A stretch of DNA of 64,000 nt from Ensifer adhaerens (GTDB lineage Bacteria; Pseudomonadota; Alphaproteobacteria; Rhizobiales; Rhizobiaceae): positions 186,001 to 250,000 of the forward strand of contig NZ_CP118612.1 of the NCBI RefSeq assembly GCF_028993555.1, given 5' to 3'. Positions 1,124 through 27,339 of this stretch are shown here, piece by piece. Position 1 is the first letter of the stretch; each line of letters starts with the position of its first letter. Made by a program: the position numbers and the translations under genes. Below the pieces are notes generated by a model. That model saw nothing but the letters and a program-made list of their open reading frames with translations. It did no database searches and was not told the origin of the DNA.

Positions 1124-1148
1124 AACCGAGGAGGATGACCGTTGTTCC
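1124..1148 (-). promoter_or_regulatory. EcfG/RpoE2-like promoter
   Basis: On the minus strand: GGAAC (1148-1144), 16 bases, GGTT (1127-1124). This fits the alphaproteobacterial general-stress consensus (GGAAC-N18/19-TT). It is placed 27 bp upstream of the start at 1097. Confidence 0.65.
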
Positions 1149-1299
1149 ACCATCGCGCTTCTCAGCCGCACCGAAGACGCTGAAACATTATTACTTCGGG
1201 GAGGCAATGCGGTTTGACCGGGGAAGACTGGACGAGGGCTCCCGTCGTTGCCGCCGCTCTCTGCGGGATCGAACGCCCTCTCGGATCCGCAGCGAAAAC

Positions 1300-2079
1300 T
1301 TAGTTCTTTTTCTTGGCGCTAACCGTAGCCTTCGTCGTGAGCCGGAAATCGGCCATCTCCTGCGCCGTCAAATAGTAGAGATGATCCGGCGGGGTTTCCA
1401 AAGCGTGGAACCAAAGGCCCGCAGAAATTCCCATTGTGTCGAGATGGCGCGCGACCCGGGCAGTGGCAGACTGGGCTGCAGACATGGCTTCCTCTGCAGT
1501 CGGCCGGTCATTGGTGCCGCTGAATAGCTGGTGCACACCAACTACCGCGTCAGATTCCACAAGGCGCTCGACACCGCCTGATAGGATAATCGGGCAGGAG
1601 GATGCGCACAGCGCTCTCGATGCCACCTTGGTGCGAAGTCTCTTGTCTCTGATCAGCTTGGAGATCGCCAACGCGTCGTCGACCGAACCGCCCGGGGAAT
1701 TGAGCTCAACGGTTTCGACATATTCACCGCGTTGTTGGATCTCGCGGGCAAATCGCAAAGCTGCGCCTAAGTCGAGCGTCCCCTCCGCAAGCAAGGAGCC
1801 GCCTGGGCCAAGATCGAATGTCATGGCCTTCGCTAAATCTTCGATCGGGCTTGCCGGAGTTGCCGTAGGCCTGTTCGGATCCACATTGGTTCCCGCAGGT
1901 GGCAAGAAGGGTGGCGTGTGGGATGGATCGAAGGCTGGCAGCTGCGTCTTCGTCGCGATTTCGCGAACGTCGATAAGGAGAAAAATTACCGTCAACGCCA
2001 GCAGCAGCAGGAAGGTGCCCCGCATCAACGCGCCATCGTCCAGGCGCTTCAGCACCCTGATCGGTTCATCGATCCTCAT
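1300..2079 (-). CDS. Membrane-anchored periplasmic Clp-like (COG3904-type) serine protease
   Basis: About 259 aa. One N-terminal membrane helix (LMRGTFLLLLALTVIFLLI), then a Pro-rich linker, then a ClpP/crotonase-like domain. The oxyanion motif VELNSPGGSVDDAL and the motif ALCASSCPIILSGG, carrying the likely serine nucleophile, match periplasmic ClpP-like proteins. These are predicted to act in envelope protein turnover or membrane protein quality control. I chose the ATG at 2079 because AAAGGA lies about 10 bases upstream and it leaves only a 14-bp overlap with the stop of the upstream gene (ending at 2066); the longer frame to 2166 would overlap by 101 bp. The overlap argues for translational coupling with the membrane protein encoded just upstream, probably a partner. 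The C-terminus is basic (SAKKKN). Confidence 0.8.
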   Translation of the reverse strand: MRIDEPIRVLKRLDDGALMRGTFLLLLALTVIFLLIDVREIATKTQLPAFDPSHTPPFLPPAGTNVDPNRPTATPASPIEDLAKAMTFDLGPGGSLLAEGTLDLGAALRFAREIQQRGEYVETVELNSPGGSVDDALAISKLIRDKRLRTKVASRALCASSCPIILSGGVERLVESDAVVGVHQLFSGTNDRPTAEEAMSAAQSATARVARHLDTMGISAGLWFHALETPPDHLYYLTAQEMADFRLTTKATVSAKKKN

Positions 2080-3379
2080 TCGATCGATCCTTTGGACGAG
2101 TTCGTGGATCGAGACTGGTGATGTTGTTTTGCTCCTCCGGTCTTTTCTCTGGTTCCAGCTCTGCAACAGCCTCTTCGAGGTTTATCCCGTTTTTCGTCAA
2201 GGCGCGCTGCACTTCCAAAGCCTGCAAAAGTTCGGCTGCCGTGATGCGCTCCGCAAAGGGCATGCTTTCCTCCTGTTTGCGGATTGCACCATGGGCGACG
2301 GCGAGAATGAAGACCAAGACGCCGGGCAGCAGATCGATGGAGATGGCGCCGGCCCAGGCGGGAATAAAGTCTGCGGCGTAACGCAGCACAGCTTCTGCGG
2401 AAGATAGCGGCACAAACCTGCGTTCCGTCACCGGTGTGCGCGCAAGGATTTCGTCGGCGGCGTCGGAAAGAACCTTTGACTGGGCGGCGACCGAAGCACG
2501 TACCGTTGCCATTACCCTGTCCTGACGGTCGACAAGGTCTGCATCGCCACCGTCGGCAACAGGAGCAATAAAGCCGAGAGAAAGATCGTCGGCCGCGCGG
2601 CGGATCGAAGGGGCGATCGACGTCTGGCCGAGCGAGGCTATGACGCCCGTGAGCGCTACGACTTCTGAGGAAAATTGATCGGCGCGCGGCTCGATTGCGC
2701 CGGGTGCCGACACCAGGGTGCGCATGATCCCCAGCCGCTTTTGTCCCTGATTGAACAAGGTGGTTACTTGTTCGCGCGAAGCGTTGATTCCGCTCTCAAG
2801 ATCTTTCATCTGCGCTGACATTTGAGACAGCAGCTGCACGACGCTTCCAGAGCCTGTCGTGCCGGTGAGAGCGCCTGATTGCCGTTCAGAAAGGGCAAGC
2901 TGAGCGAACCGTTCGGATGCGCGCTGGATGTCGGGCAGAAGGCTCTGGGCGGCCAGCGCGTTTTGGTGCGCCTGGTCAAGGTCGGCGGTATAGTCCTCGA
3001 CGGTTTCTGCAAGATGCTGCTCGAGTGCGGCAGAACCGGCGAGTGCCGCCGCATTCAGCCAGCTGGACATAGCGACGATCATGGCCGCGCCTAGGGCCAT
3101 GACGCCGAGCATGGAGGCGCGACCCGTATGGGTGGTGATATGCGGATAAAAGCGGGCCATATAGGACCAGAACGCGTAGATGCCGACTGAAACGGAAGCC
3201 GAGTAGATGATCGCAGCAAAGAACACCGCGGTCGGCGAGCCATCGAGGATGCTGCGGACGCCGAGGTAGGTGTACACGCCTGACGCCAGGGCCAGCACTG
3301 CTACGGCAAACCGCGTCATCGTCTCGACGGCGGCAACCCCGTCGTGCAAACGTTGGGATGCGCCGGTCGCCATGGGCAA
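2066..3379 (-). CDS. Multi-pass membrane protein with large extracytoplasmic helical domain, partner of Clp-like protease
   Basis: A 437-aa protein not assigned to a named family. Three hydrophobic helices occupy about residues 22-115 (FAVAVLALASGVYTYLGV; VFFAAIIYSASVSVGIYAFW; MLGVMALGAAMIVAMSSWL). They are followed by about 240 residues of Ala/Gln/Glu-rich helix (for example LEQHLAETVEDYTADLDQAH) that is likely coiled coil and extracytoplasmic. A last membrane helix near residue 375 (LLPGVLVFILAVAHG) leads to a charged cytoplasmic tail. The topology resembles a scaffold or sensor. Its 3' end overlaps the Clp-like protease gene by 14 bp, so the two are likely made together and may form a membrane protease complex. 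This is inferred from context only. Confidence 0.75.
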   Translation of the reverse strand: MPMATGASQRLHDGVAAVETMTRFAVAVLALASGVYTYLGVRSILDGSPTAVFFAAIIYSASVSVGIYAFWSYMARFYPHITTHTGRASMLGVMALGAAMIVAMSSWLNAAALAGSAALEQHLAETVEDYTADLDQAHQNALAAQSLLPDIQRASERFAQLALSERQSGALTGTTGSGSVVQLLSQMSAQMKDLESGINASREQVTTLFNQGQKRLGIMRTLVSAPGAIEPRADQFSSEVVALTGVIASLGQTSIAPSIRRAADDLSLGFIAPVADGGDADLVDRQDRVMATVRASVAAQSKVLSDAADEILARTPVTERRFVPLSSAEAVLRYAADFIPAWAGAISIDLLPGVLVFILAVAHGAIRKQEESMPFAERITAAELLQALEVQRALTKNGINLEEAVAELEPEKRPEEQNNITSLDPRTRPKDRSNEDR

Positions 3380-3553
3380 GTCTCCGCAAAAGGAATGTAT
3401 TCCTTAAAAGAGGATGAAGAAACAGGCGGAATAAAGGCCGGCTTCTTTGCGGTGGCGTGTGGTTTAGAGCCCGTCGTCAGGTAGCTCGCACTCAAGAAAG
3501 CGCAAAGGCAGGCCGTCAGACCTCACCATCGGCTTACGAATCCGCGTCTTTCC

Positions 3554-4337: not shown

Positions 4338-4548
4338 TCAGGGAACGCAAAACTTCAACGCGTCATCGCAAGATCCGAAGGACAGACGCCCAGCATTTGC
4401 ATCGGTGCATTCGTCGAGCGCCTCCGCGTACGCAATTCCGTGATCCACCGGCCAACAGTCGCTGAGCAAATGCGCCGCTTGAACACCGGTGTCCAAACGA
4501 TCTGCACCCGTCGAGCGCGGGCAACTGAATGATGATGCATTCGTCCGA
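4338..4548 (-). pseudogene. DUF982 family pseudogene (frameshifted paralogue of the gene at 5360)
   Basis: Three minus-strand frames together rebuild a DUF982 protein: DECIIIQLPALDG in one, VQIVWTP in the next, then AAHLLSDCWPVDHGIAYAEAL and ECTDANAGRLSFGSCDDALK in the third, up to a stop at 4338. The intact copy at 5360-5605 has the same segments in one frame. Compared with that copy, a G is missing in the run at about 4507-4510 (GGG instead of GGGG), and two extra bases lie between the VWTP and the LLS segments. DUF982 proteins are about 80-90 aa and of unknown function, and they are abundant in rhizobia. Confidence 0.75.
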
Positions 4549-4698
4549 AGTAACATCGCCCGATCCTCTGTCCTTGGGCATAACGAGGGGATAGCCCGTT
4601 CGTTCCCGTCCACATGTCGAAGCGGGCCACGGCCCAGTCAGGCAGTGGATGCGGAACAATCCCGTGCGCTGTCTATTGTTGACTGAAGGAGTCTACCA

Positions 4699-5052: not shown

Positions 5053-5078
5053 GGAACAAACACAGCCAGCTATCGGTT
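5053..5078 (+). promoter_or_regulatory. EcfG/RpoE2-like promoter
   Basis: GGAAC (5053-5057), 17 bases, GGTT (5075-5078), 23 bp upstream of the ATG at 5102. Confidence 0.65.
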
Positions 5079-5101: not shown

Positions 5102-5272
5102 ATGAATACGATGCCGACTGAACCGATCCCGAGGCCCCCTGACCCTAAATTCCCGCCAGGAATGCCGCCGGACGTGCCGTGTCCACCGATCGAGGAACCA
5201 GAGCCCGACATCCTTCCGGACGAGGTTCCCAATCCGAACCCGGATGAGAATGATCGGCCACCGAAGCAGTAA
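5102..5272 (+). CDS. Small Pro/Asp/Glu-rich protein
   Basis: A 56-aa protein made largely of Pro, Asp, Glu and Asn (for example PRPPDPKFPPGMPPDVP), so most likely disordered. I use the ATG at 5102, which has GAAGAGGAG about 7 bases upstream and lies directly below an EcfG-like promoter; the frame is open further up to 4958, but that part overlaps the promoter. It recalls the disordered acidic protein at 27368 in composition and promoter type, though I see no clear alignment between them. A hydration or desiccation role is conceivable but not shown. Confidence 0.65.
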   Translation: MNTMPTEPIPRPPDPKFPPGMPPDVPCPPIEEPEPDILPDEVPNPNPDENDRPPKQ

Positions 5273-5308: not shown

Positions 5309-5333
5309 GGAACGATGGCCGCAACCCGGAGTT
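5309..5333 (+). promoter_or_regulatory. Possible EcfG/RpoE2-like promoter (weaker)
   Basis: GGAAC (5309-5313), 16 bases, AGTT (5330-5333), 26 bp upstream of the DUF982 start at 5360. The downstream box has A in place of the usual G or C. Confidence 0.4.
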
Positions 5334-5359: not shown

Positions 5360-5605
5360 ATGATCGAAAGTTGGAACGAATGCGTGATCATCCAGCTTCC
5401 GGATCTGGACGGGGTGCAAATAGTATGGACACCCGGCCGCGCAGCCACGCTGCTTAGTGAGAGTTGGCCGATCGATTACGGAGTCGCCTATTTGGATGCC
5501 CTCAACAAATGCACGGACGCAATGCTAGGCACCTACCCATGGGAACAAGCGCGAGACGCATTCCTGGAGGCCATTGCCGAGGCTAAGGTCGCAAAGCTGC
5601 GCTAA
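5360..5605 (+). CDS. DUF982 domain protein
   Basis: An 81-aa protein filling the whole DUF982 domain. The core matches the family: VIIQLPDLDGVQIVWTPGRA, LLSESWPIDYGVAYLDAL, CTDAMLG, and WEQARDAFLEAIAEAKV at the C-terminus. The family is small, soluble and of unknown function, and is common in multiple copies in rhizobia. The start at 5360 has GGGAG 8 bases upstream; a longer frame begins at 5315 but adds no family sequence. A decayed paralogue lies at 4338-4548 on the other strand. Confidence 0.85.
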   Translation: MIESWNECVIIQLPDLDGVQIVWTPGRAATLLSESWPIDYGVAYLDALNKCTDAMLGTYPWEQARDAFLEAIAEAKVAKLR

Positions 5606-6133: not shown

Positions 6134-6158
6134 GGAACAAGGTTCAGACTTGCTGGTT
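6134..6158 (+). promoter_or_regulatory. EcfG/RpoE2-like promoter of the holin-like/DUF3618 operon
   Basis: GGAAC (6134-6138), 16 bases, GGTT (6155-6158), 48 bp upstream of the first gene of the operon at 6207. Confidence 0.65.
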
Positions 6159-6206: not shown

Positions 6207-6776
6207 ATGATCGACGACCCAAGAGATCGCACACCCCAGCAACAACAAAGATTTTTACTGCCCGACGAAAATAACCGGGACGCGGAGAGTCTTGGCGATA
6301 ATTCCGCCGATTGGCAGAGCGAAGGCCGGGGCGGCGAAAGTCCGCGCCGTGATGATCAGACCAGTCAGGCTAAAGAAGCCGCGGCGCGCGCCGTGGAGCA
6401 CGAGAAGAATGCACTGGCGCGCCAACTACGCGGCCTGGCAGGCGCCATGGAAAAGGTCGGGTCCGAACTTCGCCAATCAGAGCAACCAGCGCTTGGGCGC
6501 TACACCCAGCAAATTGGGAGCTCGATCGGACGGCTGGCGCACGATTGTGAAGATCGAGAGCTCGGCGAAATTGCCGCGATGGCAGAAGATTTCGGGCGAA
6601 AGCAGCCTCTCGCCTTCCTCGGCATGGCGGCAATAGCAGGGCTAGCAGCGAGCCGTTTCCTTTCGGCCTCAACACAGCGATCCCACACCAATCCGGAAAG
6701 GGCACGGCCGAACGCTCCTCCCGCGCGCGCCAGGGACGGTGATTGGGACTTTGAGAAGGAGTTGCGAGATGCTTAA
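6207..6776 (+). CDS. Hypothetical protein, first gene of a stress-type envelope operon
   Basis: A 189-aa protein. It has a polar, disordered N-terminus, then a long amphipathic helical region (AKEAAARAVEHEKNALARQL; MEKVGSELRQSEQPALGRYT) and a short hydrophobic stretch (PLAFLGMAAIAGLAASRFLS) near residue 145, which would anchor it in the inner membrane. The ATG at 6207 has GAAGAGGAGG just upstream. Its end overlaps the start of the holin-like gene by 8 bp, and that gene in turn overlaps the DUF3618 gene, so the three are one operon. This trio is often found together in rhizobia, with members annotated as nutrient-deprivation-induced proteins. The exact role is unknown. Confidence 0.8.
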   Translation: MIDDPRDRTPQQQQRFLLPDENNRDAESLGDNSADWQSEGRGGESPRRDDQTSQAKEAAARAVEHEKNALARQLRGLAGAMEKVGSELRQSEQPALGRYTQQIGSSIGRLAHDCEDRELGEIAAMAEDFGRKQPLAFLGMAAIAGLAASRFLSASTQRSHTNPERARPNAPPARARDGDWDFEKELRDA

Positions 6777-7188
6777 CCCCCGCGATGACCGCCCTCTTTC
6801 GGAACTCATGACAGTCTTGGTCACTGACATATCCGGGCTTTTCCGGAAAGAAATCGATCTTGCAAAGGCCGAGGCAGGAGAAAATCTGGATCGCGCTATC
6901 GGCAGTCTCGAGACGCTTCTTGTGGGGCTCATTTTCGCCATCGCCGCCATTGGCGTGCTTTTGAGCGCCGTGGTGCAGGGTCTCAGCGCGTTCCTCGTCG
7001 GCCAGGGCATGCAGGAGGCAAACGCCGACGCCTTGTCAGCCGTAATCGTCGGCGTCCTCGTCGCTTTACTCGCATGGGCAATGATCTCGCGCAGCCTTGC
7101 CAAACTGTCGAACCGCACCATGCGCTTCGACAAGACAACGGCGTCCCTCCAGCGTGATCTCGAGGTAGCCAAGGAGACAGTACGATGA
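6769..7188 (+). CDS. Phage holin family / DUF1469-type (Phage_holin_3_6) membrane protein
   Basis: A 139-aa protein. The N-terminal part (LSELMTVLVTDISGLFRKEI) is the typical amphipathic start of this family, followed by two membrane helices (LLVGLIFAIAAIGVLLSAVV and ALSAVIVGVLVALLAWAMI) and a charged tail. Despite the name, chromosomal members are not shown to be phage holins; they are thought to be envelope proteins of stressed cells. The ATG at 6769 has AAGGAG upstream and overlaps the preceding stop by 8 bp. Its own stop overlaps the next start (ATGA at 7185). Confidence 0.85.
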   Translation: MLNPRDDRPLSELMTVLVTDISGLFRKEIDLAKAEAGENLDRAIGSLETLLVGLIFAIAAIGVLLSAVVQGLSAFLVGQGMQEANADALSAVIVGVLVALLAWAMISRSLAKLSNRTMRFDKTTASLQRDLEVAKETVR

Positions 7189-8120
7189 CCACCGATACGC
7201 ATTCGCCTGCCGAGTTAGAGCGGGAGATCGACGCCGACCGACAGAGGATCGAAGAGACGCTTCACGCCATCCAGGAGCGGATGTCGCCCGGTGAGTTGAT
7301 GGATGAATTTCTGGATTACGTGCGGCGCAGCGGCGGAGCTGAATTTCTCAAGAACCTCGGCGGTGCGATGAAAGCCAATCCAATTCCAGTGGCCCTGACG
7401 GGTGTCGGCCTTGCATGGTTGCTGGCGGATCCTGCGTCGCGCGCACCTCAAACTCTACCCCCAGACAATGGTGCAGACAATTATCCACTCGCGTCTGTCA
7501 GTGGCACTTTACGGCGCGTTGGGCCGGTCGAGGCAAATTTTGGCGAGCGCTACAGCCACTTCGCAGACGACAATGGCAGTCGCTTCCGCGCCCGTACCGA
7601 TACCGCCGGCCGTCGAGCCGGACATTTCGTCGATCCGACCGGTACCGTCTATCGTGGCTTTGCCGACACCGCCGGGCGAGCGATCACTGATATTCGTGAC
7701 GAGAGGGGAAATTTGTTCGATGAAGCGTCTGGCTGGGCATCGGCAACGTGGCGAGAAATGAAGGGCGCGGCAAGCGGACTTTCCGATACCATTGCTGGTA
7801 CCGGCCGGTCAGTGGCAGACGGCGCTCGCGATGTTGGCCAGGCGGCACATGCCCGCGGAGCGCAGTTGAACGCGGCCATTCTAAGCAACTTTCGCGACCA
7901 GCCGCTGGTTGGAGGTGCGCTTGCGTTTGCCATCGGCGCCGCGATTGGCGCCGCACTGCCTGCGACCGCACTGGAGGATGAGGTGGTCGGCGAGACTGCG
8001 GACCGAGTTCGCGATCAACTCGCGGCCACGGCCGATGCCGCGGCAGAGGGGGCAATCGACGGTGTAAAAGGAGTTTTGGACGAAGCAAAGAAGGCGAGTG
8101 AGGCACGTTCTCCCGGATGA
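7185..8120 (+). CDS. DUF3618 domain protein (nutrient deprivation-induced type)
   Basis: A 311-aa protein. Residues 1-60 match the DUF3618 pattern (LEREIDADRQRIEETLHAI) and are followed by a short hydrophobic stretch (PIPVALTGVGLAWLLA). The central region is Gly/Ala/Arg-rich with repeat-like segments such as AGHFVDPTGTVYRGFADTAG. A second hydrophobic segment (LVGGALAFAIGAAIGAALP) lies near residue 250, before an acidic helical tail. Start and upstream stop overlap by four bases, so it is translationally coupled. A 45-bp piece of its 3' part (about 7974-8018) recurs almost unchanged at about 20229-20273, inside a decayed region. Confidence 0.85.
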   Translation: MTTDTHSPAELEREIDADRQRIEETLHAIQERMSPGELMDEFLDYVRRSGGAEFLKNLGGAMKANPIPVALTGVGLAWLLADPASRAPQTLPPDNGADNYPLASVSGTLRRVGPVEANFGERYSHFADDNGSRFRARTDTAGRRAGHFVDPTGTVYRGFADTAGRAITDIRDERGNLFDEASGWASATWREMKGAASGLSDTIAGTGRSVADGARDVGQAAHARGAQLNAAILSNFRDQPLVGGALAFAIGAAIGAALPATALEDEVVGETADRVRDQLAATADAAAEGAIDGVKGVLDEAKKASEARSPG

Positions 8121-8124: not shown

Positions 8125-8573
8125 TCAACCTTCGCGTGGCGCGCCGCCCAGGGCACGCCGCTGCGGATGGCGGCTCGTGCTTTCACGTCCTTCGCGAAGT
8201 GACCGCAAGAGCAGCGGTGAAACGAGCACAAATCCGGCGGTGGGTTTCCGAAGACATGTCAGGCGCCGCACGAGAGCCATCGGACAAAAAGGGTCCGGGT
8301 GAGGACTGGGACGTCCGATCTTCTTGTGACGGCCTCCGTGGGACGGGACACCGTGAAAGAACCATCGCAGTCGTGGATTGCCGGCTTTCGACACCCCTTG
8401 TTCCCGGTCGGTCGCCCTGGTCTGGCATGGCATCGGCGCCAAGCCCGCATAGGCGGCGACCTGCCTGCGATTATCAAAATGCCGCGACAACCCTTCGGTC
8501 CAAAGTACCGCCGCACAGCGTTTCGCCAATTCGGTCTGGAACGGAATGACTTTTCACTGGTTAGACATCCCAA
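8125..8573 (-). pseudogene. IS110-family transposase remnant (C-terminal part)
   Basis: The minus strand encodes the conserved C-terminal Transposase_20-type signature of IS110 elements: FDNRRQVAAYAGLAPMPCQ, then DREQGVSKAGNPRLRW. A further piece, ALVRRLTCLRKPTAGFVLVS, resembles the last helix of the family. Most of the transposase, including the N-terminal DEDD domain, is missing, and frameshifts and internal loss are evident between the segments. No terminal repeats can be seen. It lies between the DUF3618 operon and a small-protein gene, so it marks an old insertion. Confidence 0.7.
8538..8562 (+). promoter_or_regulatory. EcfG/RpoE2-like promoter
   Basis: GGAAC (8538-8542), 16 bases, GGTT (8559-8562), 22 bp upstream of the ATG at 8585. 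It lies at the edge of the IS110 remnant. Confidence 0.65.
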
Positions 8574-8584: not shown

Positions 8585-8659
8585 ATGAATCAGTTGATCT
8601 ACCTTGTGGGCCTTGTCGTAGTCGTCATCGCGATACTGTCTTTCTTCGGATTGCATTAG
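8585..8659 (+). CDS. 24-aa single-helix membrane microprotein
   Basis: A very short gene: ATG at 8585, stop at 8657-8659. The peptide is nearly all one membrane helix (LIYLVGLVVVVIAILSFFGL) with Met-Asn-Gln before it and a single His at the end. The start has a strong AAAGGAG 6 bases upstream, and a well-formed EcfG-like promoter lies at 8538-8562, so this is more than a chance frame. Similar tiny hydrophobic proteins occur in rhizobia. It probably inserts into the inner membrane; its partner is unknown. Confidence 0.75.
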   Translation: MNQLIYLVGLVVVVIAILSFFGLH

Positions 8660-9359: not shown

Positions 9360-9927
9360 AAATACTTTTGAGTCACTCGGCGGAACGTTATCTGCGCCCG
9401 TACGTTCCTGTATCGCCAGCGCCACTCTCCGCTGCGCAACACGAGGCCGGGCTCCAAGTCTTCAAGTCCCAAACCTTGGAGCCCGTTGAGTACCATCCTG
9501 CTTGGCCCCACCTGACGGCGGGGCCATTGCTTTTTCCCCTGCCCCAAATTTCTTAAGAGCACTTTGCGCCCGGCGACCTGGCCGCGTCTCGCCTAGGTCA
9601 AACGAGGACCTGATATGTCTAAATGACGGCAGTCGTCGACGTGATCGAGGTTGGGTGCGGCATCAGCGCCGTTGGCCACGACATGTACGTAATTGGCGAT
9701 GCCGACGAGCAGCAAGCCAGGATCGAAGAACCCAGCCGTATCGGCGAGAAATACAGTAATCGCGAGCCAACTCAAGTTGGAGATCGTCCCCTACCTTCAG
9801 TCGATTGGAAGGTTCGTGGGACTTAGCTTGGCCTGAAACACGGCACTAGCAGCGGCAGCCTTCCGCGAGGGCCATCAGACAATGGTCGGAAGCGCTGCCA
9901 GACGAAGGTCGAACATCATTGATTTCG
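9360..9927 (+). other. Gene-poor stretch, contains a hairpin
   Basis: No convincing gene. The frames here are short, have no start signals and show no family resemblance. The only structure seen is the hairpin at 9504-9525. Confidence 0.5.
9504..9536 (+). terminator. Rho-independent terminator candidate
   Basis: Six-base GC arms GGCCCC (9504-9509) and GGGGCC (9520-9525) with a 10-base loop, followed within 4 bases by a run of T. It lies 145 bp after the gene ending at 9359. Confidence 0.5.
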
Positions 9928-9952
9928 GGAACGAAAGATCCCCAGCAAGGTT
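9928..9952 (+). promoter_or_regulatory. EcfG/RpoE2-like promoter
   Basis: GGAAC (9928-9932), 16 bases, GGTT (9949-9952), 57 bp upstream of the DUF1236 gene. Confidence 0.65.
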
Positions 9953-11406: not shown

Positions 11407-11431
11407 AACCCGCTTGAACGTCAGTTGTTCC
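11407..11431 (-). promoter_or_regulatory. EcfG/RpoE2-like promoter
   Basis: On the minus strand: GGAAC (11431-11427), 16 bases, GGTT (11410-11407), 31 bp upstream of the start at 11375. Confidence 0.65.
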
Positions 11432-12603: not shown

Positions 12604-12628
12604 AACGAGGACATCGACGATTGGTTCC
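12604..12628 (-). promoter_or_regulatory. EcfG/RpoE2-like promoter
   Basis: On the minus strand: GGAAC (12628-12624), 16 bases, CGTT (12607-12604), 53 bp upstream of the Nudix start. Both boxes match the consensus. Confidence 0.75.
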
Positions 12629-12704: not shown

Positions 12705-12729
12705 GGAACCCCAAACCGGCAAACGAGTT
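12705..12729 (+). promoter_or_regulatory. Possible EcfG/RpoE2-like promoter of the SDR-ligD operon (weaker)
   Basis: GGAAC (12705-12709), 16 bases, AGTT (12726-12729), 31 bp upstream of the SDR start. It would drive the SDR, ligD, HARP-like and DUF4334 genes. Confidence 0.45.
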
Positions 12730-18566: not shown

Positions 18567-19454
18567 TCAGCTCGCACGACGCGATGGCACCGACGGTTTC
18601 GCCTTGGCAGAAGGCTTTTCCGCTCGTGAAGCGCCTTTGTTGGCATTGGTGGCCTTTCGTTTGGAGTTGGATCTGCCCACCCTCAGGCCTGCACTCTCGC
18701 GAAGCGCCTTGAGCAGATCGCCCGGTTTGGAAGCGACGGGCGCTTTCTTCTTCGGCAGGGAGCGCCCCTCGATTTTCGCCTTCACCAGTTCCGCAACGGA
18801 AGCCTCGTAACGGTCATCGAAGGCGCTGGCGTCGAAACTGCCTTTCTTGGTACCGATGATATGTTCGGCAAGCTCGAGCATCTCTCCCTCGATCTTGAGG
18901 TCGGGAAGGTCCGCAAAGGCTTCCTTCGCCGATCGCACTTCATAGTCGAAATTAAGGGTCGCTGCGATCAGCCCCTTGCCATGCGCGCGGATGAGTACGG
19001 TTCGCATCCTGCGAAAGAGCACAGTCTTGGCGATCGCAGCGACCTTGGCCTTCGCCATCCCGTCACGAAGGAGCGCAAAAGCCTCGCCGCCCATTTTGTC
19101 GGGTGCAAGATAATACGGCTTGTCGAAGTAGGTCGTGTCGACCTGCGAGCAGGGAATAAAGGCTTCGATCTTCAGCGTCTTGTCGCTATCTGGAACTGCG
19201 GCGGCAACCTCTTCGGGTTCCAGAACGACGTATCGTCCGTCATCGACCTCATAGCCTTTTACTTGATCATCACTCGCTACCGGCTCCCCGGTTTCGCTAT
19301 CGACGAACTCACGCCTTACGCGATTACCTGTCTTGCGATTGAGGGTATGGAAGCTGATGCGTTCCGATGAAGAGGAGGCCGTGTAAAGTGCCACCGGGCA
19401 GGTGACTTCTCCAAATTTGATATAGCCTTTCCAGTTCGCTCTTGGGGCCACCAT
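18567..19454 (-). CDS. ku: Ku protein, second paralogue
   Basis: A 295-aa Ku homologue with the same core as its neighbour (NWKGYIKFGEVTCPVALYTA, FHTLNRKTGNRVRREFVDSE, GRYVVLEPEEVAAA, KPYYLAPDKMGGEAFALLRD) and a longer Lys/Arg/Ala-rich C-terminal tail that probably contacts DNA. I start it at the ATG at 19454, preceded by GAGAGG. The frame is open to 19505, but that part lies inside the EcfG-like promoter at 19488-19513. It is the first gene of a two-gene ku operon, convergent to the ligD operon. Confidence 0.95.
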   Translation of the reverse strand: MVAPRANWKGYIKFGEVTCPVALYTASSSSERISFHTLNRKTGNRVRREFVDSETGEPVASDDQVKGYEVDDGRYVVLEPEEVAAAVPDSDKTLKIEAFIPCSQVDTTYFDKPYYLAPDKMGGEAFALLRDGMAKAKVAAIAKTVLFRRMRTVLIRAHGKGLIAATLNFDYEVRSAKEAFADLPDLKIEGEMLELAEHIIGTKKGSFDASAFDDRYEASVAELVKAKIEGRSLPKKKAPVASKPGDLLKALRESAGLRVGRSNSKRKATNANKGASRAEKPSAKAKPSVPSRRAS

Positions 19455-19487: not shown

Positions 19488-19513
19488 AACCCAGTCAGCG
19501 GCCAAAACGTTCC
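19488..19513 (-). promoter_or_regulatory. EcfG/RpoE2-like promoter of the ku operon
   Basis: On the minus strand: GGAAC (19513-19509), 17 bases, GGTT (19491-19488), 33 bp upstream of the start at 19454. Confidence 0.65.
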
Positions 19514-19669: not shown

Positions 19670-19694
19670 GGAACCGCATGCGGTTCTGCCCGTT
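19670..19694 (+). promoter_or_regulatory. EcfG/RpoE2-like promoter, probably of a leaderless gene
   Basis: GGAAC (19670-19674), 16 bases, CGTT (19691-19694). Only 8 bases separate it from the ATG at 19703, about where transcription should begin. Confidence 0.65.
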
Positions 19695-19702: not shown

Positions 19703-19903
19703 ATGACCGGCGCACTCAAAAGCCATGAACGGAAGCTGGTCGCAATCCTGCGCGCTTCCGCCAGATTGCATTTTGCCGACGCCGACAAGGCCGACGCCGA
19801 AGTTGAGCGGGTGTTGCGTTTCGCGATCTCAGAAGCCGAGCAAGGGCGCTCCAGAGTTGATAAGAAACGGTGGCTTCTTCGTATGATGCATGTGCCATCG
19901 TGA
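19703..19903 (+). CDS. Hypothetical small helical protein, possibly translated from a leaderless mRNA
   Basis: A 66-aa, charged, helical protein (SHERKLVAILRASARLHFAD, DADKADAEVERVLRFAISEA, then RWLLRMMHV). No ribosome binding site precedes the ATG at 19703, but a consensus EcfG-like promoter ends 8 bases before it, which places the expected transcription start at or next to the ATG. A leaderless message explains both facts. The same frame is open back to 19640, which would overlap the promoter. Function unknown. Confidence 0.55.
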   Translation: MTGALKSHERKLVAILRASARLHFADADKADAEVERVLRFAISEAEQGRSRVDKKRWLLRMMHVPS

Positions 19904-20361: not shown

Positions 20362-20386
20362 GGAACCCTATTTTGTGTTGCCGGTT
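20362..20386 (+). promoter_or_regulatory. EcfG/RpoE2-like promoter
   Basis: GGAAC (20362-20366), 16 bases, GGTT (20383-20386), 67 bp upstream of the start at 20454. Confidence 0.65.
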
Positions 20387-20453: not shown

Positions 20454-21773
20454 ATGACATGTTTCGTGATGCGCATGTCTGTTCTGTGTCTCGCTGTGCT
20501 GGTGGTGGCATGCACATCACCACAACGGGCAACGATCGCGAGCGGCCAGGGCTACGGTCCCGATCCGACACTGCCGAAGCCACGACCGACCCTGATCCCG
20601 ATTGTCAACATCGCCGAAGCAAAGGGGTGGTCCAGCGGTGAGACTCCACACGTAGCCAGGGGGCTTCGTGTGAATGTCTTTGCCAGTGGGCTCGATCACC
20701 CTCGTTGGCTTTACGTGCTTCCAAATGGAGACGTTCTCGTCGCGGAGACCAATGCCCCTGCAAAGCACGACGACGGCTTCAGCCTGAGAAAGGTTTTCAT
20801 GGCGCAAGCCATGAAGCGAGCAGGGGCTGCGACGAAGAGCGCCAACCGCATAACGCTTCTGCGAGACACGAACGGGGATGGTGTCGCCGACCTACGGAGG
20901 CCGTTCCTCGAGGGCCTGAACTCGCCTTTTGGCATGACGCTGTCGAAAGGAATACTTTACGTCGCCGCAACTGACGCCCTTGTCGCCTTTCCCTATTCAA
21001 ACGGCCAGTCACGAATAACCGCGGCGCCGCGAAAAATCGCGGACCTGCCAGCGGGTGAGATAAACCACCATTGGACAAAGGACGTGATTGCTAGCCGCGA
21101 CGGGACAACGCTGTACGTCACCGTGGGTTCGAACAGCAATGTCGGTGAGAACGGCATATCAGCCGAAAGGAATCGGGCCTCGGTTCTCCAAATCGACCCG
21201 TCGAGCGGACGGACGCGCGTGTTCGCCTCGGGACTGCGCAATCCAAACGGGCTTTCCTTTGAACCGCATACCAGGGCGTTATGGGTGGCGGTCAATGAGC
21301 GTGACGAGATCGGCGACGATCTGGTGCCCGACTACATGACGTCGGTGCGAGACGGCGGCTTTTATGGGTGGCCCTATAGCTACTATGGTCAAAACATCGA
21401 TGCTCGAGCCAAGCCGCCAAGACCGGATCTCGTCGCAAGAGCACTCAAGCCTGACTACGCCCTCGGTTCCCATACGGCATCGCTAGGGCTGACCTTTTCT
21501 GAAACCTCGTCTCTGGGATCGGCGTATCGCGACGGCGCCTTTATTGGCCAGCACGGCTCTTGGAACCGGCGCGAACACAACGGTTACAAGGTCATTTACG
21601 TGTCGTTTCGAAAAGGAAAGCCGGCCGGCAAACCAAGAGATGTTCTTACAGGTTTCATTGGTCGGGACAACCGGGCACGGGGACGGCCCGTCGGTGTCAC
21701 TTTCGACAAGAGTGGCTCTTTGCTTGTGGCCGATGACGTCGGCAATATCGTTTGGCGGGTAAGCCGAAAATAG
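20454..21773 (+). CDS. PQQ-dependent sugar (sorbosone/glucose) dehydrogenase-like lipoprotein
   Basis: A 439-aa protein with a lipoprotein signal (SVLCLAVLVVAC, lipobox VVAC), so anchored to a membrane facing the periplasm. The rest is a six-bladed beta-propeller of the sorbosone dehydrogenase/GSDH type: FASGLDHPRWLYVLPNGDVL, GLNSPFGMTL, EINHHWTKDVIASRDGTTLY, VFASGLRNPNGLSFEP, GGFYGWPYSYYG, FIGQHGSWNRREHNGYKVIY. Members oxidise sugars with PQQ, although many have unknown substrates. The ATG at 20454 has GGAG 8 bases upstream; another Met lies at 20469. It stands alone under an EcfG-like promoter. Confidence 0.9.
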   Translation: MTCFVMRMSVLCLAVLVVACTSPQRATIASGQGYGPDPTLPKPRPTLIPIVNIAEAKGWSSGETPHVARGLRVNVFASGLDHPRWLYVLPNGDVLVAETNAPAKHDDGFSLRKVFMAQAMKRAGAATKSANRITLLRDTNGDGVADLRRPFLEGLNSPFGMTLSKGILYVAATDALVAFPYSNGQSRITAAPRKIADLPAGEINHHWTKDVIASRDGTTLYVTVGSNSNVGENGISAERNRASVLQIDPSSGRTRVFASGLRNPNGLSFEPHTRALWVAVNERDEIGDDLVPDYMTSVRDGGFYGWPYSYYGQNIDARAKPPRPDLVARALKPDYALGSHTASLGLTFSETSSLGSAYRDGAFIGQHGSWNRREHNGYKVIYVSFRKGKPAGKPRDVLTGFIGRDNRARGRPVGVTFDKSGSLLVADDVGNIVWRVSRK

Positions 21774-22638: not shown

Positions 22639-22664
22639 GGAACAAGGATCTTTCCCCGTACGTT
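22639..22664 (+). promoter_or_regulatory. EcfG/RpoE2-like promoter of the HWE kinase
   Basis: GGAAC (22639-22643), 17 bases, CGTT (22661-22664), 47 bp upstream of the kinase start at 22712. Both boxes fit the consensus fully. Confidence 0.75.
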
Positions 22665-22711: not shown

Positions 22712-23698
22712 ATGAATCTCGAAGATCTTTACCGTTTGCTGCGGAACGGCCACCTCGAAGCCCAGGGGATCATCGACACGGTCCCTGATCCCTTGCTTTT
22801 GCTCGATCAAAACCTACGCGTCCGTACCGCCAGCCGGGCGTTCTTTTCAACTTTCAAAGTCGGCCACGACGATACAATCGATGAATACCTCTACGACCTG
22901 GGTGACGGCCAATGGGACATTCCCGAGCTGCGCCGTCTCCTCGAAGAGGTGATCCCGAAAAGTGCCGCTGTCGTGGATTATGAGGTTCAACACGATTTTC
23001 CGAGGATTGGCCGTAGGACGATGCTGGTGAGTGCGCACCGTCTGTTCCGTCCCGAAAACAACAGCCGATTTTTGCTGTTATCGATCGTTGACGCCACGCA
23101 GCAACGCAAGCGGGAGGCCGAGCAGGCGGTGCTTCTTGGTGAGATCCGGCATCGGATGAAGAACCTTCTCGCGCTCGTCCAGGCGCTTGCCCGGCAAACA
23201 ACGGCCGAGGGTCGATCTGGCGAGGAGTACCGGGATGCCTTCCTCGGCCGCTTCAATACGCTGGTGCGAGCCCATGATGCGGCTTACGCACAAGAAGATC
23301 AGGCAGATCTGAAGGAGGTCCTGGAACGAACCCTCAACCCGTACTCGGAAAGCCCTGGGGGAATTCTGATTGAACCGGGGCAGCCGGTTCTCTTGGAACC
23401 CGGTCAAGTCGTATCGCTGAGCCTAGTCTTGCACGAACTGGCGACCAATGCTGTGAAGTATGGTGCGCTCTCGACCAAAGCGGGAAAAATCAAGATTCGA
23501 TGGAAGACAGAGTCGGCGAGCCCACCGCGCCTACGTTTGATATGGCGGGAGAGTGGCGGCCCACGGGTCAAGTCGCCGGTCACGATGGGCTTCGGCACGC
23601 GGCTCGTCCAATTTGCGGTGAGCCAAGAACTTCGCGGGCGGGTGGAACTGAATTACAGACCAGGGGGTTTGGTGGTGGAGATCGTATCCCCACTCTGA
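22712..23698 (+). CDS. HWE-family sensor histidine kinase with N-terminal PAS domain
   Basis: A 328-aa soluble kinase. A PAS domain covers about residues 15-125 (IIDTVPDPLLLLDQNLRVRT; FLLLSIVDATQQRKREAEQA). The HWE domain follows: phospho-acceptor His near residue 147 in LLGEIRHRMKNLLALVQALA, N-box VLHELATNAVKYGALS, the diagnostic WRE motif in LRLIWRESGGP, and the G-box GFGTRLVQFAV. HWE kinases in alphaproteobacteria often control the PhyR-NepR-EcfG general stress switch. The ATG at 22712 is used rather than a TTG at 22706. A single-domain response regulator follows after 28 bp, and an EcfG-like promoter precedes, which suggests feedback on the stress response. Confidence 0.92.
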   Translation: MNLEDLYRLLRNGHLEAQGIIDTVPDPLLLLDQNLRVRTASRAFFSTFKVGHDDTIDEYLYDLGDGQWDIPELRRLLEEVIPKSAAVVDYEVQHDFPRIGRRTMLVSAHRLFRPENNSRFLLLSIVDATQQRKREAEQAVLLGEIRHRMKNLLALVQALARQTTAEGRSGEEYRDAFLGRFNTLVRAHDAAYAQEDQADLKEVLERTLNPYSESPGGILIEPGQPVLLEPGQVVSLSLVLHELATNAVKYGALSTKAGKIKIRWKTESASPPRLRLIWRESGGPRVKSPVTMGFGTRLVQFAVSQELRGRVELNYRPGGLVVEIVSPL

Positions 23699-23726
23699 TC
23701 GGTCTCGTGGCTTCGAGGCTGGTTTC

Positions 23727-24083
23727 ATGTCCAAAACCGTGCTTCTCGTCGAGGACGAGTTCCTGATCGCGCTGGACCTTACGCTTGTGCTCGAACGGCA
23801 TGGGTGGATCGTGATCGGGCCTGCGGCAACTGTGACAAAAGCCCTGGCGCTGTTGAAAATACAACGGCCATCCGTCGCACTGCTCGACGTGACGCTCAGG
23901 GATGGTTCGGTAACCCCGGTTGCGGAGGCACTTCGCGCAAACAATGTACCGTTCGTAATAGCCAGTGCCTACGAAACGCCAGAGGATGTCGGGGGCGAAG
24001 TTCTGGCGGGGGCAATCAACGTCGGTAAGCCAACAGACGCGCAGGATCTGCTTAAGACCCTCGAGCAGGTAATACAATCCTGA
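23727..24083 (+). CDS. Single-domain response regulator (receiver only)
   Basis: A 118-aa receiver domain with nothing attached. The acidic pocket is Glu9-Asp10 (VLLVEDEFLIAL), the phosphorylated Asp is residue 54 (VALLDVTLRDG), Ser79 stands at the switch position (VIASAYETP) and Lys101 is in NVGKPT. In the general stress response such stand-alone receivers, for example SdrG types, act as phosphate shuttles or sinks for HWE kinases. It lies 28 bp after the HWE kinase gene, so the two are most likely a cognate pair on one transcript. Confidence 0.92.
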   Translation: MSKTVLLVEDEFLIALDLTLVLERHGWIVIGPAATVTKALALLKIQRPSVALLDVTLRDGSVTPVAEALRANNVPFVIASAYETPEDVGGEVLAGAINVGKPTDAQDLLKTLEQVIQS

Positions 24084-24292: not shown

Positions 24293-24317
24293 GGAACGTC
24301 AGTTTCGTCCGTGGGTT
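24293..24317 (+). promoter_or_regulatory. EcfG/RpoE2-like promoter
   Basis: GGAAC (24293-24297), 16 bases, GGTT (24314-24317), 36 bp upstream of the ATG at 24354. Confidence 0.65.
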
Positions 24318-24353
24318 GGTTCGACATTCAACGAAGCCGAAGAGGAGATACCA

Positions 24354-24608
24354 ATGCTGAAGACACTACTGACGGCGACAGTGCTATTCGCGCTTGCTGG
24401 GCCTTCTGCCTTTGCCTTGTCCGATATCGTGTGTGATCAATCGAACATGTCGAAGCTGGAGCGTGACGTCAACGGCATGAAAGACGCGATGAAGAAGGAC
24501 TACGCCAACAAGGAATTGGCGATGGCCAAGAAGGCACTTGCATCGAACGAGAGCGACAAATGCAAGACGCATATGTCGAACGCCATGGAGGGAAATGACC
24601 CGATGTGA
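24354..24608 (+). CDS. Small exported helical protein
   Basis: An 84-aa protein with a signal peptide (MLKTLLTATVLFALAGPSAF, cleavage likely after AFA). The mature part has two cysteines (VCDQ and KCKT), which could form a disulfide, and a Lys/Met-rich helix (GMKDAMKKDYANKELAMAKK). The ATG at 24354 has GAAGAGGAG upstream and the EcfG-like promoter just above. A hairpin at 24631-24657 follows the stop. Function unknown; periplasmic location inferred. Confidence 0.8.
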   Translation: MLKTLLTATVLFALAGPSAFALSDIVCDQSNMSKLERDVNGMKDAMKKDYANKELAMAKKALASNESDKCKTHMSNAMEGNDPM

Positions 24609-24630
24609 CGGGTCGAGGCAGCCCGAAAGA

Positions 24631-24657
24631 ATGGCTCCGCGGGTAGGACGGAGCCAT
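24631..24657 (+). terminator. Hairpin after the small exported protein gene
   Basis: Nine-base perfect arms ATGGCTCCG (24631-24639) and CGGAGCCAT (24649-24657) with a 9-base loop. No T-run follows, so it is either a weak terminator or an mRNA-stabilising structure. Confidence 0.5.
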
Positions 24658-24764
24658 AGAGTGTGGGCCCCATTGGAGAAGAGCGCGGAGCCGAGCCGAT
24701 AATCCGGCATCGTGGCTCACCGACAAAGCCAGCACAGCCTCCGAACCAAAATGTTCCCTATGCG

Positions 24765-24992
24765 TCAGCGCCGGTCCTGAGCAGCGTGTCCTGAGCGGCG
24801 TGCTGTCCGTCGGGGCGACGAGCATGTGAGCACTTCGACGACGTCAGTCTGCAAGTCGAGATAGATTTGCTGATATTCGCAGATCTTCGCGTCGGGGGAC
24901 CTCTCGCAAAAGATTGTCGCGCTTCGTTGAAGCCAGAAAAGTCTCTGGTTTCTGGTTTCGCGGAGCTGCCGGCGATGACGCGGCAGCGCCAT
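24765..24992 (-). CDS. Possible hypothetical small protein
   Basis: A 75-codon frame from the ATG at 24992 (GGAAAGG 12 bases upstream; a longer form starts at 25028). The central part (CERSPDAKICEYQQIYLDLQ, TDVVEVL) reads like a real helical protein, while the C-terminal 20 residues are Arg-rich and less convincing. No promoter or family match seen. It may be real or a partly decayed gene. Confidence 0.35.
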   Translation of the reverse strand: MALPRHRRQLRETRNQRLFWLQRSATIFCERSPDAKICEYQQIYLDLQTDVVEVLTCSSPRRTARRSGHAAQDRR

Positions 24993-25081
24993 GGCCAGTC
25001 GGGCCCTTTCCAAATGCATCAAGCCCATACTGATCTGATCTTTTGGTTGAGTTCGCCCGAGAGCTTCGCCGATCCGTCCTG

Positions 25082-25264
25082 CTATTGCGAGTTGGACACC
25101 GTAGGCTTGGGAAGGACGGTGGTCATCGGTCGGTCACTATCGTTCGAAGCACCTCCTACCAGCAGGTAAGCAGTGATCGCCACCATTGACAGAAGCATCA
25201 TCCCGACGGGTAGACCGGTGGTAAACTTTCGTTCCGGCACGACGTATGTGTGTCGTTTGTACAT
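25082..25264 (-). CDS. 60-aa single-pass membrane protein (paralogue of the gene at 10463)
   Basis: A 60-aa protein from the ATG at 25264 with GAGG 8 bases upstream. It aligns without gaps to the protein at 10463: KFTTGLP before the membrane helix, MLLSMVAITAYLLVGG as the helix, and TVLPKPTV at the end. The much longer frame up to 25534 lacks any homologue support beyond this part, so the paralogue fixes the start. Function unknown. Confidence 0.7.
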   Translation of the reverse strand: MYKRHTYVVPERKFTTGLPVGMMLLSMVAITAYLLVGGASNDSDRPMTTVLPKPTVSNSQ

Positions 25265-25707
25265 TTGCACATCCTCGGTTCCATCCATCGGGCGACGGCA
25301 CCAGACCAGTGGCTGACCTGGAAGGAGTGCTCCGGCGCCGTGCCCCCCAAGACAGAAAAGAGCTGTGCTGCTTGGGCAAACGCGAAAACTAACGCGAGCG
25401 TACGGTGAGACAACGAACCTAGGACTTTTGCGCTGGCCGTTTGGGACTGAAGTCCAATGGAGGAACCTTTTCCGCCGCCTTACGTTTGGTGATGCTCTCG
25501 ATCCTCGACCCGATCGAGGCCCTCTAGGCCCCACTTGCCATTAGTGTCCCCGCTAGCCGTGGGGCCTACCGAGGGAGTTGGGTAGTCAACTTCTTGATCG
25601 CTCGCCAAACCGAAGGGCGACGGTCACCTCAACGGCTCCGCACTGTCGAAGTCGTCTTTTTACCCAGAATGGATGAGTTGTGGCATTAGCGCTGAGGTGT
25701 GCGTGAC
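25265..25707 (-). other. Gene-poor stretch
   Basis: No gene can be supported. A frame on the minus strand continues upstream of the 60-aa gene but shows no protein character. Confidence 0.4.
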
Positions 25708-25926
25708 CTAAAAAGCTGTCCCTCGTGGCCATAAAAATTCGGCCATCTGACGGAGATCATCTCTTTCGCGGATGCCGTTTTGGTAAAGGTTCAACAACCG
25801 AACCGCCAGGATCTCGGCTTCATCGCTGGAACGATCCAGCTGACGTGAACGAATTAGTTCGCAAAATACGAGGTCTATGACTGTCCTGGAAACAGGGAGG
25901 ATAGGGTCGGTGCGGCGACGTGCCAT
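25708..25926 (-). CDS. Hypothetical protein, single copy of the helical unit found twice at 8862
   Basis: A 72-aa soluble protein starting at an ATG with GAGG 5 bases upstream. It holds one helical unit (VIDLVFCELIRSRQL, then DEAEILAVRLLNLYQNGIRE, then DLRQMAEFLW) matching both halves of the 165-aa protein at 8862-9359, especially its first half (AEVIARRLLGYYQRGIRE). The unit seems to be a small domain spread in this genome. Function unknown. Confidence 0.7.
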   Translation of the reverse strand: MARRRTDPILPVSRTVIDLVFCELIRSRQLDRSSDEAEILAVRLLNLYQNGIRERDDLRQMAEFLWPRGTAF

Positions 25927-26210
25927 CGCTACCTCCTCAAATGGGCGAAGGCGATGATCTTCAGATGGAGCCTCAACGTCATCCGGAGGGAACCTCGATC
26001 ATCGGCAACCAGACGAACGCGCATCGTGCCAAATGGTTCCAGTGTCGCTATTCAGCTGACCCACCAACTTCAACGGGATCAGGCACAGTCGCGTTAAAAA
26101 TATCCATGACGCTCCGGCGCGTCGTAGGTGAGTTGGCACCAAGCTTCTCGAAACCAGGTGAACGGGCGCTTCCGCGTCGGTCGCAGCTGCCACCGCTTTT
26201 GCTTTCGGCG

Positions 26211-26309
26211 TCAGCGCCTCTTGGCGGGTGCCTCATCCTTCGTATCCACCGGATGATCTCGCTTTTTTTCGGCCGTATGCTCGATGGACGCGACCTGCTT
26301 CTCTTCCAT
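26211..26309 (-). CDS. Possible 32-aa charged small protein
   Basis: A short frame from the ATG at 26309 to the stop at 26211-26213. The peptide is strongly charged (MEEKQVASIEHTAEKKRDHP, then VDTKDEAPAKRR) and looks disordered. There is no clear ribosome binding site, and the frame continues open upstream, so this may also be the end of a longer decayed gene. The surrounding 25927-26642 holds nothing else that I can support. Confidence 0.3.
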   Translation of the reverse strand: MEEKQVASIEHTAEKKRDHPVDTKDEAPAKRR

Positions 26310-26642
26310 CACGGGCGCACGCAGGAGGGCCAACGGACGAGTCTCCGCTCTGGGCGTACTCCGGAGTCGTCTTGACGAGGCTGTTAGCGGCGCTTTCAGC
26401 CCATCTAGCTAGCTTTTAGCTAGCGGAGTGCAAAGACGAGGCAGTGCGCCCTGCTCTCGTCAGCCCGTGGAGCTTCTACTCATCGTGATCGTACAACAGA
26501 GATTGAGCGCGACGGGCGCCCCAACGAGCCGGCGGCCACAGACGAGAAGCCGCCATGCGAGCAAGGCATGAGACTGAGGGTTCAAGGTATCTGCCTGCCG
26601 GGTTTTGGTATAGATTAGAAATAGGACAGAGGGAGAACCTGA

Positions 26643-27008
26643 ATGGTCTCCGTTCGATATATAGTCGCCGACGTTGATGAGGCGGTCGCGTTCTATCGAG
26701 ACCAACTCAATTTCAACCTCGACAAACACAATCCGGGCAAATTCGCAGCGCTTGTGCGGGACGAACTGACGCTGTATCTCAGCGCCCCAGGCGCGGGAAG
26801 CGGTGGTCAAGCGGGCGGCAATCCGAAGCCAGGAGGGTGGAACCGGTTTATGATCGTCACGCATGAGCTCGATGCTCTGATCGAGCGGTTGCACCGGGTT
26901 GATGCAAAATTCCGCGGCGACATAAGCGATGGCGGCGCCGGTCGGGCCATTCTGCTCGAAGATCCGTCGGGCAACCCCATCGAACTGTTCGAGTTCAAAA
27001 AGGACTGA
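26643..27008 (+). CDS. VOC (glyoxalase/bleomycin resistance) family protein
   Basis: A 121-aa protein forming one vicinal-oxygen-chelate domain. The beta-alpha-beta-beta-beta pattern is seen as VRYIVADVDEAVAFYRDQLN, then ALVRDELTLYLSAPG in the first half and RFMIVTHELDALIERLHR, then AILLEDPSGNPIELFEF in the second. VOC members bind a metal and catalyse isomerisation, dioxygenation or drug binding; the substrate here is unknown. The start has GGGAG 7 bases upstream. It is a single gene with no close neighbours. Confidence 0.88.
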   Translation: MVSVRYIVADVDEAVAFYRDQLNFNLDKHNPGKFAALVRDELTLYLSAPGAGSGGQAGGNPKPGGWNRFMIVTHELDALIERLHRVDAKFRGDISDGGAGRAILLEDPSGNPIELFEFKKD

Positions 27009-27313
27009 GCCCGGCCAATTCAGCCTCCAGGATGAAGCGCGATTGTGCAATCGACGCGGCAGAACTGAGGCCATCGGTCTGCCTGATCGATCAGCAAACC
27101 GGGCGCTACGATTGTCGGCAACGGGGCCTATCTTTGCGGCGGCACGTCGGCATGTCGGTCAGGACGCGTTGCTCCTGCGAACAATCTGATTTGCAGAGAT
27201 CTTCCGTGGTCACAGCAAAAGGCTCATGTTTCTTTTTAATTCCCGCAGCCGGGAGGCCTTCTGCTGACCGGTGGCTTGGAGCGGTTACACAAACATGGGC
27301 TCACGATCTGCCC

Positions 27314-27339
27314 GGAACCTTCCGTCCGGGCACCCGGTT
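27314..27339 (+). promoter_or_regulatory. EcfG/RpoE2-like promoter
   Basis: GGAAC (27314-27318), 17 bases, GGTT (27336-27339), 28 bp upstream of the ATG at 27368. Confidence 0.65.

Follow-up and report, generated by a model that had tools for sequence, protein, structure and literature searches.

A dense block of putative EcfG-type promoters before genes and predicted small RNAs on an Ensifer adhaerens plasmid

Introduction

The closest described counterpart of the locus analysed here is the RpoE2 regulon of Sinorhizobium meliloti, in which Ku and LigD are induced by RpoE2 (PMC12844678), pairs of histidine kinases and response regulators depend on the same sigma factor (PMC3616915), as does rpoE5 (PMC6180224), and 23 small RNAs (sRNAs) carry sigma-E2 motifs, with eight sRNA-bearing intergenic regions responding to rpoE2 (PMC3616915). 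The sRNA ReC64 of Rhizobium etli is likewise under EcfG control (PMC3892343), and GsrN of Caulobacter crescentus, together with predicted homologues in the Rhizobiaceae, has an EcfG-type promoter and exposes a C-rich loop close to its 5' end (PMC5869019). Given these precedents, EcfG-driven sRNAs are already a known kind, and RpoE2 regulation of non-homologous end joining (NHEJ) is in print (PMC12844678). The subject of this report is a stretch of 64,000 nt of the Ensifer adhaerens genome (7.77 Mb, four contigs), positions 186,001 to 250,000 of the 623,840-bp contig C3, referred to as the window. Its first 28 kb are very probably the left part of a plasmid-borne general-stress-response (GSR) island, whose genes and at least two sRNAs would be read from promoters of the sigma factor EcfG (RpoE2-type). 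The density of this plasmid island and a family of paralogous sRNAs look new: no description of such a dense plasmid island or of this sRNA family was found in the literature, of which coverage was partial.

The analysis was made at the level of sequence and covered the sites, their spacing, density and conservation, the architecture of the sRNAs, and the presence of EcfG, NepR and PhyR. Genes were listed from open reading frames (ORFs), ribosome-binding sites and Pfam matches.

Density and placement of the sites

A strict site was defined as GGAAC-N16/17-[GC]GTT, with GGAAC as the -35 and GTT as the -10 element. Positions 1-28000 of the window hold 21 strict sites, where 300 dinucleotide shuffles yield a mean of 0.99 (SD 1.05, maximum 7), and at the genome-wide rate the Poisson probability of 21 sites in 28 kb is about 1e-20. 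Thus the excess over random DNA of like composition, which a preliminary description of this DNA had named as a check on its reading, is present. Positions 28001-64000 hold two strict sites against 1.28 expected, at 49187 and 61211 on the minus strand; neither precedes a gene, in agreement with the earlier statement that no gene of the right-hand 36 kb has such a site in front of it. The -35 and -10 elements and the 16-17-nt spacing of the EcfG promoter class are found in the window sites, 16 having a spacer of 16 and five a spacer of 17, against zero to four for each remaining spacer from 8 to 26 in the same 28 kb.

As for placement, a listed gene starts on the same strand 28-125 nt downstream of 16 of the 21 strict sites (base rate 5.25%, P 5e-17), compared with 6 of 66 control GGAAC words that have no -10 partner. 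At the 16 gene-proximal sites, 8-89 nt separate the last base of GTT from the start codon, a slightly wider range than the 8-70 bp first given. All 15 sites of the preliminary list are present where it placed them, 13 with [GC]GTT and two (5309 and 12705) with AGTT, and they match the EcfG/RpoE2 consensus; in form, spacing, position near genes and conservation they are as real promoters should be. The list omits eight further strict sites, at 4606(-), 9382, 9408(-), 23644, 25462, 26040(-), 27762 and 27788(-).

The dense block had been described as a 27-kb island, and while the block is real, the cluster continues beyond the window, where a second block of 13 strict sites (C3:250,968-276,486) begins about 37 kb further on. 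The two blocks together hold 34 of the 49 strict sites of C3 in 54.5 kb, leaving 15 in the remaining 569 kb. The locus shares with the S. meliloti RpoE2 regulon the sigma group and, here as putative targets, kinase-regulator pairs, rpoE5, Ku/LigD and sRNAs, but differs in this density, as only 4 strict sites occur in 45 kb of pSymA around the Ku/LigD homologues.

Palindromic sites (GGAAC...GTTCC) were considered as a special promoter class and rejected, because the 11 places found genome-wide compare with 12 matches on each strand for the reversed control, which is no enrichment; four of these places stand before predicted sRNA A, predicted sRNA B or the second copy of either.

Conservation in relatives

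The orthologous island of E. adhaerens Casida A, at 1230-1310 kb of pCasidaAB, has 21 strict sites in 80 kb against 3.4 expected from control spacers, and a single 50-kb stretch of that plasmid, chosen arbitrarily, contains no strict site. Similarly, a plasmid region of Shinella zoogloeoides that encodes Ku, LigD, a response regulator and a sigma factor carries 17 strict sites over 50 kb, where 1.9 are expected, and each of them has GGTT. Sites also precede LigD in Shinella and, in that genus, a protein similar by eye to the 128-aa protein of the window. Elsewhere, seven strict sites lie in 16.5 kb of Ensifer sp. Root278, the sole named genome obtained when loci were collected via a 165-aa protein, and eight other stretches compared hold one to eight in 32-50 kb.

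Orthologues in Casida A were taken at 60% identity or more, and a site was sought as GGAAC-N16/17-NGTT within 200 nt. Five of the seven orthologues of site-bearing window genes keep a site, two of these being strict; the genes concerned, the forms of their sites and the sites kept in other relatives are listed in Table 1. The sites thus stand before transcription units and are conserved at orthologues, with exceptions weighed below. The 24-aa microprotein was found by a degenerate pattern in its own genome and one other (G071) among 151 genomes of the family, and tblastn gave no match to it in plasmids.

Predicted small RNAs

Three sites without a listed gene, at 9382, 25462 and 27762, precede sRNA-like sequences, here called A, C and B, respectively, the last being degenerate in the window. 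The regulon of protein genes proposed in the preliminary description is supported, and part of it looks non-coding, which had been overlooked. Both A and C end in intrinsic terminators, a feature not detected in the window copy of B. A second copy of A lies at C1:2566168 (82%), copies of C at C3:257598(-), at C1:2564711(-) and in Root278, and an intact copy of B at C1:2564271 (locus L072), with another in Root278; L072 had no match in the plasmid collection. An inverted duplication of 1.4 kb (77.5%; window 24303-25700 and C3:258720-257367) spans the 84-aa gene and sRNA C. As a broad family, A was rejected, a BLAST search of the genus giving matches of only 32-44 bases besides its own two copies.

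The broader family was found with covariance models. A model of sRNA B that included the promoter (R1) matched 24 places in seven of 16 genus genomes, and a promoter-free model (R2), built from 16 of these places aligned without their promoters, matched 38 places in eight of the 16, including 12 on one replicon that corresponds to E. adhaerens pCasidaAB by position and identity. Outside the genus, a search of 247 genomes of the family (109 genera) gave weak matches in nine genomes (E 4e-4 to 9e-3), none of the nine with an EcfG-type site. A run of at least four C residues lies within the first 45 nt of all 16 aligned members (500 shuffles: mean 5.5, maximum 11), CCTCC occurs in seven and CCTCCTCCC in none. 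In the two consensus helices (16 pairs), 97.3% of cells pair, against 30-47% when the helices are slid, and double changes occur at three pairs, a number that 3 of 500 shuffles reach; covariation in the family is limited, suggestive rather than strong. The C-rich loop would be exposed in the modelled fold. Ten family members and both copies of A have no Rfam 15 match over the sRNA at E<=1, the four listed matches being to microRNA models elsewhere in the loci, and at Rfam gathering scores no family covers the predicted sRNAs of the window or of loci L006, L011 and L012, a set that includes sRNA C.

With GsrN these RNAs share a putative EcfG-type promoter and a predicted C-rich loop; they differ in that many paralogues lie on one plasmid. 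Nearness to core GSR genes, typical of GsrN-like sRNAs yet not the case in C. crescentus, is not seen here, the copies lying at C1:2564 kb, at C2:1101 kb and on C3, whereas ecfG is at C1:2838 kb and phyR at C1:409 kb. The SmelB126 family of S. meliloti and S. medicae is also multicopy, assigned to RpoE2 and provided with a terminator hairpin (PMC3927594, PMC7143759), but R2 does not match it, and inspection by eye showed no C-rich loop. The SmelA075/SmelA099 family, with CCUCCUCCC loops, is likewise multicopy and stress-linked with C-rich hairpin loops (PMC3927594), but CCUCCUCCC occurs in none of the 16 members here.

An alternative is that A, B and C do not exist as RNAs in their own right and are instead repeated elements or mRNAs of short ORFs that escaped annotation. 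Copies of C do stay alike beyond the terminator, the missing terminator of the window copy of B points the same way, and small ORFs such as the 24-aa one exist in the block. This alternative is nonetheless unlikely, as no start codon led by a ribosome-binding site and opening an ORF of at least 20 aa was found within 120 nt of 9382, 25462 or 27762, and the hairpins and terminators are conserved, as is the C-run.

Further sRNA-like sequences were noted. Two places, L012:13776 (+) on C1 and L014:1650 (-) in G071, show by eye an EcfG-type site, a C-rich hairpin and a GGCCCC...GGGGCC terminator-like end, and may represent a fourth sRNA type. In three plasmids searched, R2 gave a single weak match (E 0.057) in S. 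meliloti 1021, at pSymB (NC_003078) 1402632-1402747 (-), preceded by a strict EcfG-type site and ending in a terminator-like sequence. The Rfam sRNA Atu_At1 (RF02496, 104 bits) lies at window 11894-12001 (+), near the Nudix gene, with no listed EcfG-type site directly upstream.

Regulators encoded in the genome

EcfG, NepR and PhyR are all encoded on C1. The nepR-ecfG pair is divergent from a PhyR-like ORF (its first 25 residues are PhyR-like by eye), and the region that separates the two carries EcfG-type sites on either strand; a second nepR adjoins the phyR gene at 409 kb, identified by an NCBIfam hidden Markov model. EcfG matches NCBIfam PRK12516 with 385.7 bits (cut-off 321), and its closest solved structure is 5uxx (1.9e-80), described simply as an RNA polymerase sigma factor.

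A further sigma gene, C3:270043-270234 (-), sits within the second block. Among 19 other sigma-domain matches it is the closest to EcfG (38%); it has 85% identity to E. adhaerens and 72-73% to S. meliloti plasmid genes, and we take it to be RpoE5-like. Its upstream GGAAC-N16-CATT resembles the S. meliloti rpoE5 promoter as printed in PMC6180224. Because this factor is the nearest paralogue of EcfG and lies in the island, and because the plasmid-borne EcfG2 of R. etli has targets of its own in addition to shared ones (PMC3892343), it is conceivable that the sites are read mainly by the RpoE5-like extracytoplasmic function (ECF) sigma factor, making the island a self-contained regulon. We regard this as improbable: sites in the island do not differ in form from the ones next to phyR and nepR-ecfG on C1, and S. 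meliloti RpoE5, of the same ECF group as RpoE2 and activated by it, has one putative target against 320 for RpoE2 (PMC6180224). The site upstream of the RpoE5-like gene also fits a target of EcfG, as rpoE5 is of RpoE2.

Weighing the regulon

The preliminary description had linked NHEJ, Nudix, envelope and microprotein genes in one stress regulon, and the form, spacing, placement and conservation of the sites, together with the encoded EcfG, NepR and PhyR, support that linkage. Several observations weigh against it. In Casida A, the orthologues of the DUF982 gene (within 200 nt) and of the sorbosone dehydrogenase homologue have no site, and two of seven orthologues of siteless window genes, taken as a control, do bear one. 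Kinase orthologues lack a site in S. fredii GR64, Sinorhizobium sp. K101 and S. americanum (three of four other plasmids checked), as do the Ku genes of one R. rhizogenes plasmid. The strict match at 23644, one of the 21, is probably conserved coding sequence, and some sites could be read by the RpoE5-like factor. Upstream sequence was read for 36 of the 38 R2 places, two having no locus. An EcfG-type site lies directly upstream, by 0-3 nt, in all 16 training members, a figure biased by their choice with a promoter-including model, and among the other places in the genus in 8 of 20 (5 of 14 and 3 of 6), one of these 40 nt away; by eye, the remaining places include one with a site inside the aligned stretch, one near-site with a spacer of 15 and two that are one base off. 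Finally, the motif shows no genome-wide excess (287 matches, 281 in the reversed control).

That near-equality is what a chance or compositional artefact, a GGAAC- and GTT-rich stretch rather than promoters, would lead one to expect, but spacing specificity, shuffles, gene proximity and orthologue conservation contradict this explanation, which is extremely improbable. With so small a difference between the two counts, the case for promoters stands on how densely the sites lie and where they lie, and outside the dense blocks a match to the motif is by itself weak evidence.

If the block is an EcfG-read stress island, its operation may be sketched from known GSR biology. Stress would lead HWE-type kinases to phosphorylate PhyR, and phosphorylated PhyR would remove the anti-sigma factor NepR, freeing EcfG to transcribe the island. 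Among the products, Ku and LigD would repair double-strand breaks, the Nudix hydrolase would clean up nucleotides, and envelope and small-protein content would be altered. The island may also feed back on signalling through the HWE kinase and response regulator of the window, which recall in type the RpoE2-dependent pairs SMa0113/0114 and exsFG of S. meliloti (PMC3616915), and through the RpoE5-like sigma gene. By analogy with GsrN, the probable pairing partners of the C-rich sRNA loops are mRNA stretches that are G-rich or bind ribosomes.

More tentatively, and with slightly less than even confidence, Ensifer plasmids may carry an expanding family of EcfG-driven, GsrN-like sRNAs inside mobile stress islands; the regulon would then spread as modules of promoter plus effector are copied, and amplification of its post-transcriptional arm would have produced an array of sRNAs. 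With a sigma-factor regulon densely gathered on accessory DNA, a single step could add, remove or extend the general stress response. The block also supplies a defined list of small proteins, including the 24-aa one with a promoter kept in a second species, and sRNA family members that are directly testable as GSR effectors in soil bacteria.

Features of the block and its flanks

As the preliminary description had anticipated, many proteins of the block are unnamed: 11 of 28 scanned proteins (27 in the block and one just beyond) have no Pfam family at E<=0.001.

Table 1. Putative EcfG-type sites and associated features (window coordinates)
Feature	Position	Strand	Associated gene or remark	Site in relatives
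EcfG-type promoter, GGAAC-N16-GGTT	1124..1148	-	26 bp before ORF 768-1097(-)	
109-aa protein	768..1097	-	No Pfam family; hydrophobic C-terminal stretch by eye	
EcfG-type promoter	4582..4606	-	Before 72-aa ORF 4338-4556(-), DUF982-like by eye; not in preliminary list	
EcfG-type promoter	5053..5078	+	56-aa proline-rich protein 5102-5272	Root278
Weak AGTT site	5309..5333	+	Before DUF982 gene 5360-5605	Root278 (GGTT)
EcfG-type promoter	6134..6158	+	Operon 6207-8120: 189-aa protein, holin-like, DUF3618	Root278; E. adhaerens W2-B9; Casida A (DUF3618-operon gene, GGTT)
EcfG-type promoter	8538..8562	+	24-aa hydrophobic microprotein 8585-8659	G071 (ORF and site; site by eye)
Palindromic EcfG-type site	9382..9406 (also 9384-9408)	+ (also -)	Before predicted sRNA A	
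Predicted sRNA A, ~120 nt	9413..9534	+	Hairpin; terminator 9503-9526 and T-run; putative start	
EcfG-type promoter	9928..9952	+	DUF1236 gene 10010-10315	
EcfG-type promoter	11407..11431	-	128-aa protein 10989-11375(-)	Casida A (TGTT)
EcfG-type promoter	12604..12628	-	Nudix hydrolase 12056-12550(-)	Casida A (TGTT)
Weak AGTT site	12705..12729	+	SDR oxidoreductase and LigD 12761-16310	Casida A (AGTT)
EcfG-type promoter	19488..19513	-	Two Ku genes 17740-19454(-)	Casida A (GGTT); E. adhaerens E-60 (TGTT)
EcfG-type site	19670..19694	+	8 bp before 66-aa ORF 19703-19903	
EcfG-type promoter	20362..20386	+	Glucose/sorbosone dehydrogenase-like gene 20454-21773	
EcfG-type promoter	22639..22664	+	HWE histidine kinase and single-domain response regulator 22712-24083	E. 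adhaerens M8
Motif match	23644..23669	+	Inside kinase gene, before response regulator	
EcfG-type promoter	24293..24317	+	84-aa protein 24354-24608	E. adhaerens W2-B9
EcfG-type promoter	25462..25486	+	Predicted sRNA C	Root278
Predicted sRNA C, ~168 nt	25494..25661	+	Terminator 25632-25655 and T-run; putative start	
EcfG-type promoter	26016..26040	-	72-aa ORF 25708-25926(-); not in preliminary list	
EcfG-type promoter	27314..27339	+	67-aa protein 27368-27571	
Palindromic EcfG-type site	27762..27786 (also 27764-27788)	+ (also -)	Degenerate sRNA B copy; CCCCC-loop hairpin kept	
tRNA-Met (cat)	28012..28087	-	Second copy C3:183486-183561(-)	

Two tRNA-Met genes flank the left block, at C3:183486 and C3:214012, each within one copy of a 231-bp direct repeat (87% identity between the copies), so that a tRNA gene is directly repeated at the two ends, as would suit an integrative element. 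The tRNA-Met itself has matches in all 16 genus genomes (E<=1e-10), several with more than one, and the full stretch was matched only in this genome. No integrase was found among the 27 block proteins by Pfam or by eye in C3:183.6-186 kb, and excision of the block by recombination between the repeats is therefore a conjecture.

The approximately 37 kb between the two blocks lack gene-proximal sites and hold, among other genes, two type I secretion pairs and, adjoining these, a repeat-rich protein of 1895 aa (DUF5801 repeats; window 38439-44126, minus strand) whose gene contains near-identical 501-bp tandem repeats at 39800-42813. A CHASE3-HAMP-GAF adenylate/guanylate cyclase (window 46865-49588, plus strand) adjoins a gene for a family-5 solute-binding protein.

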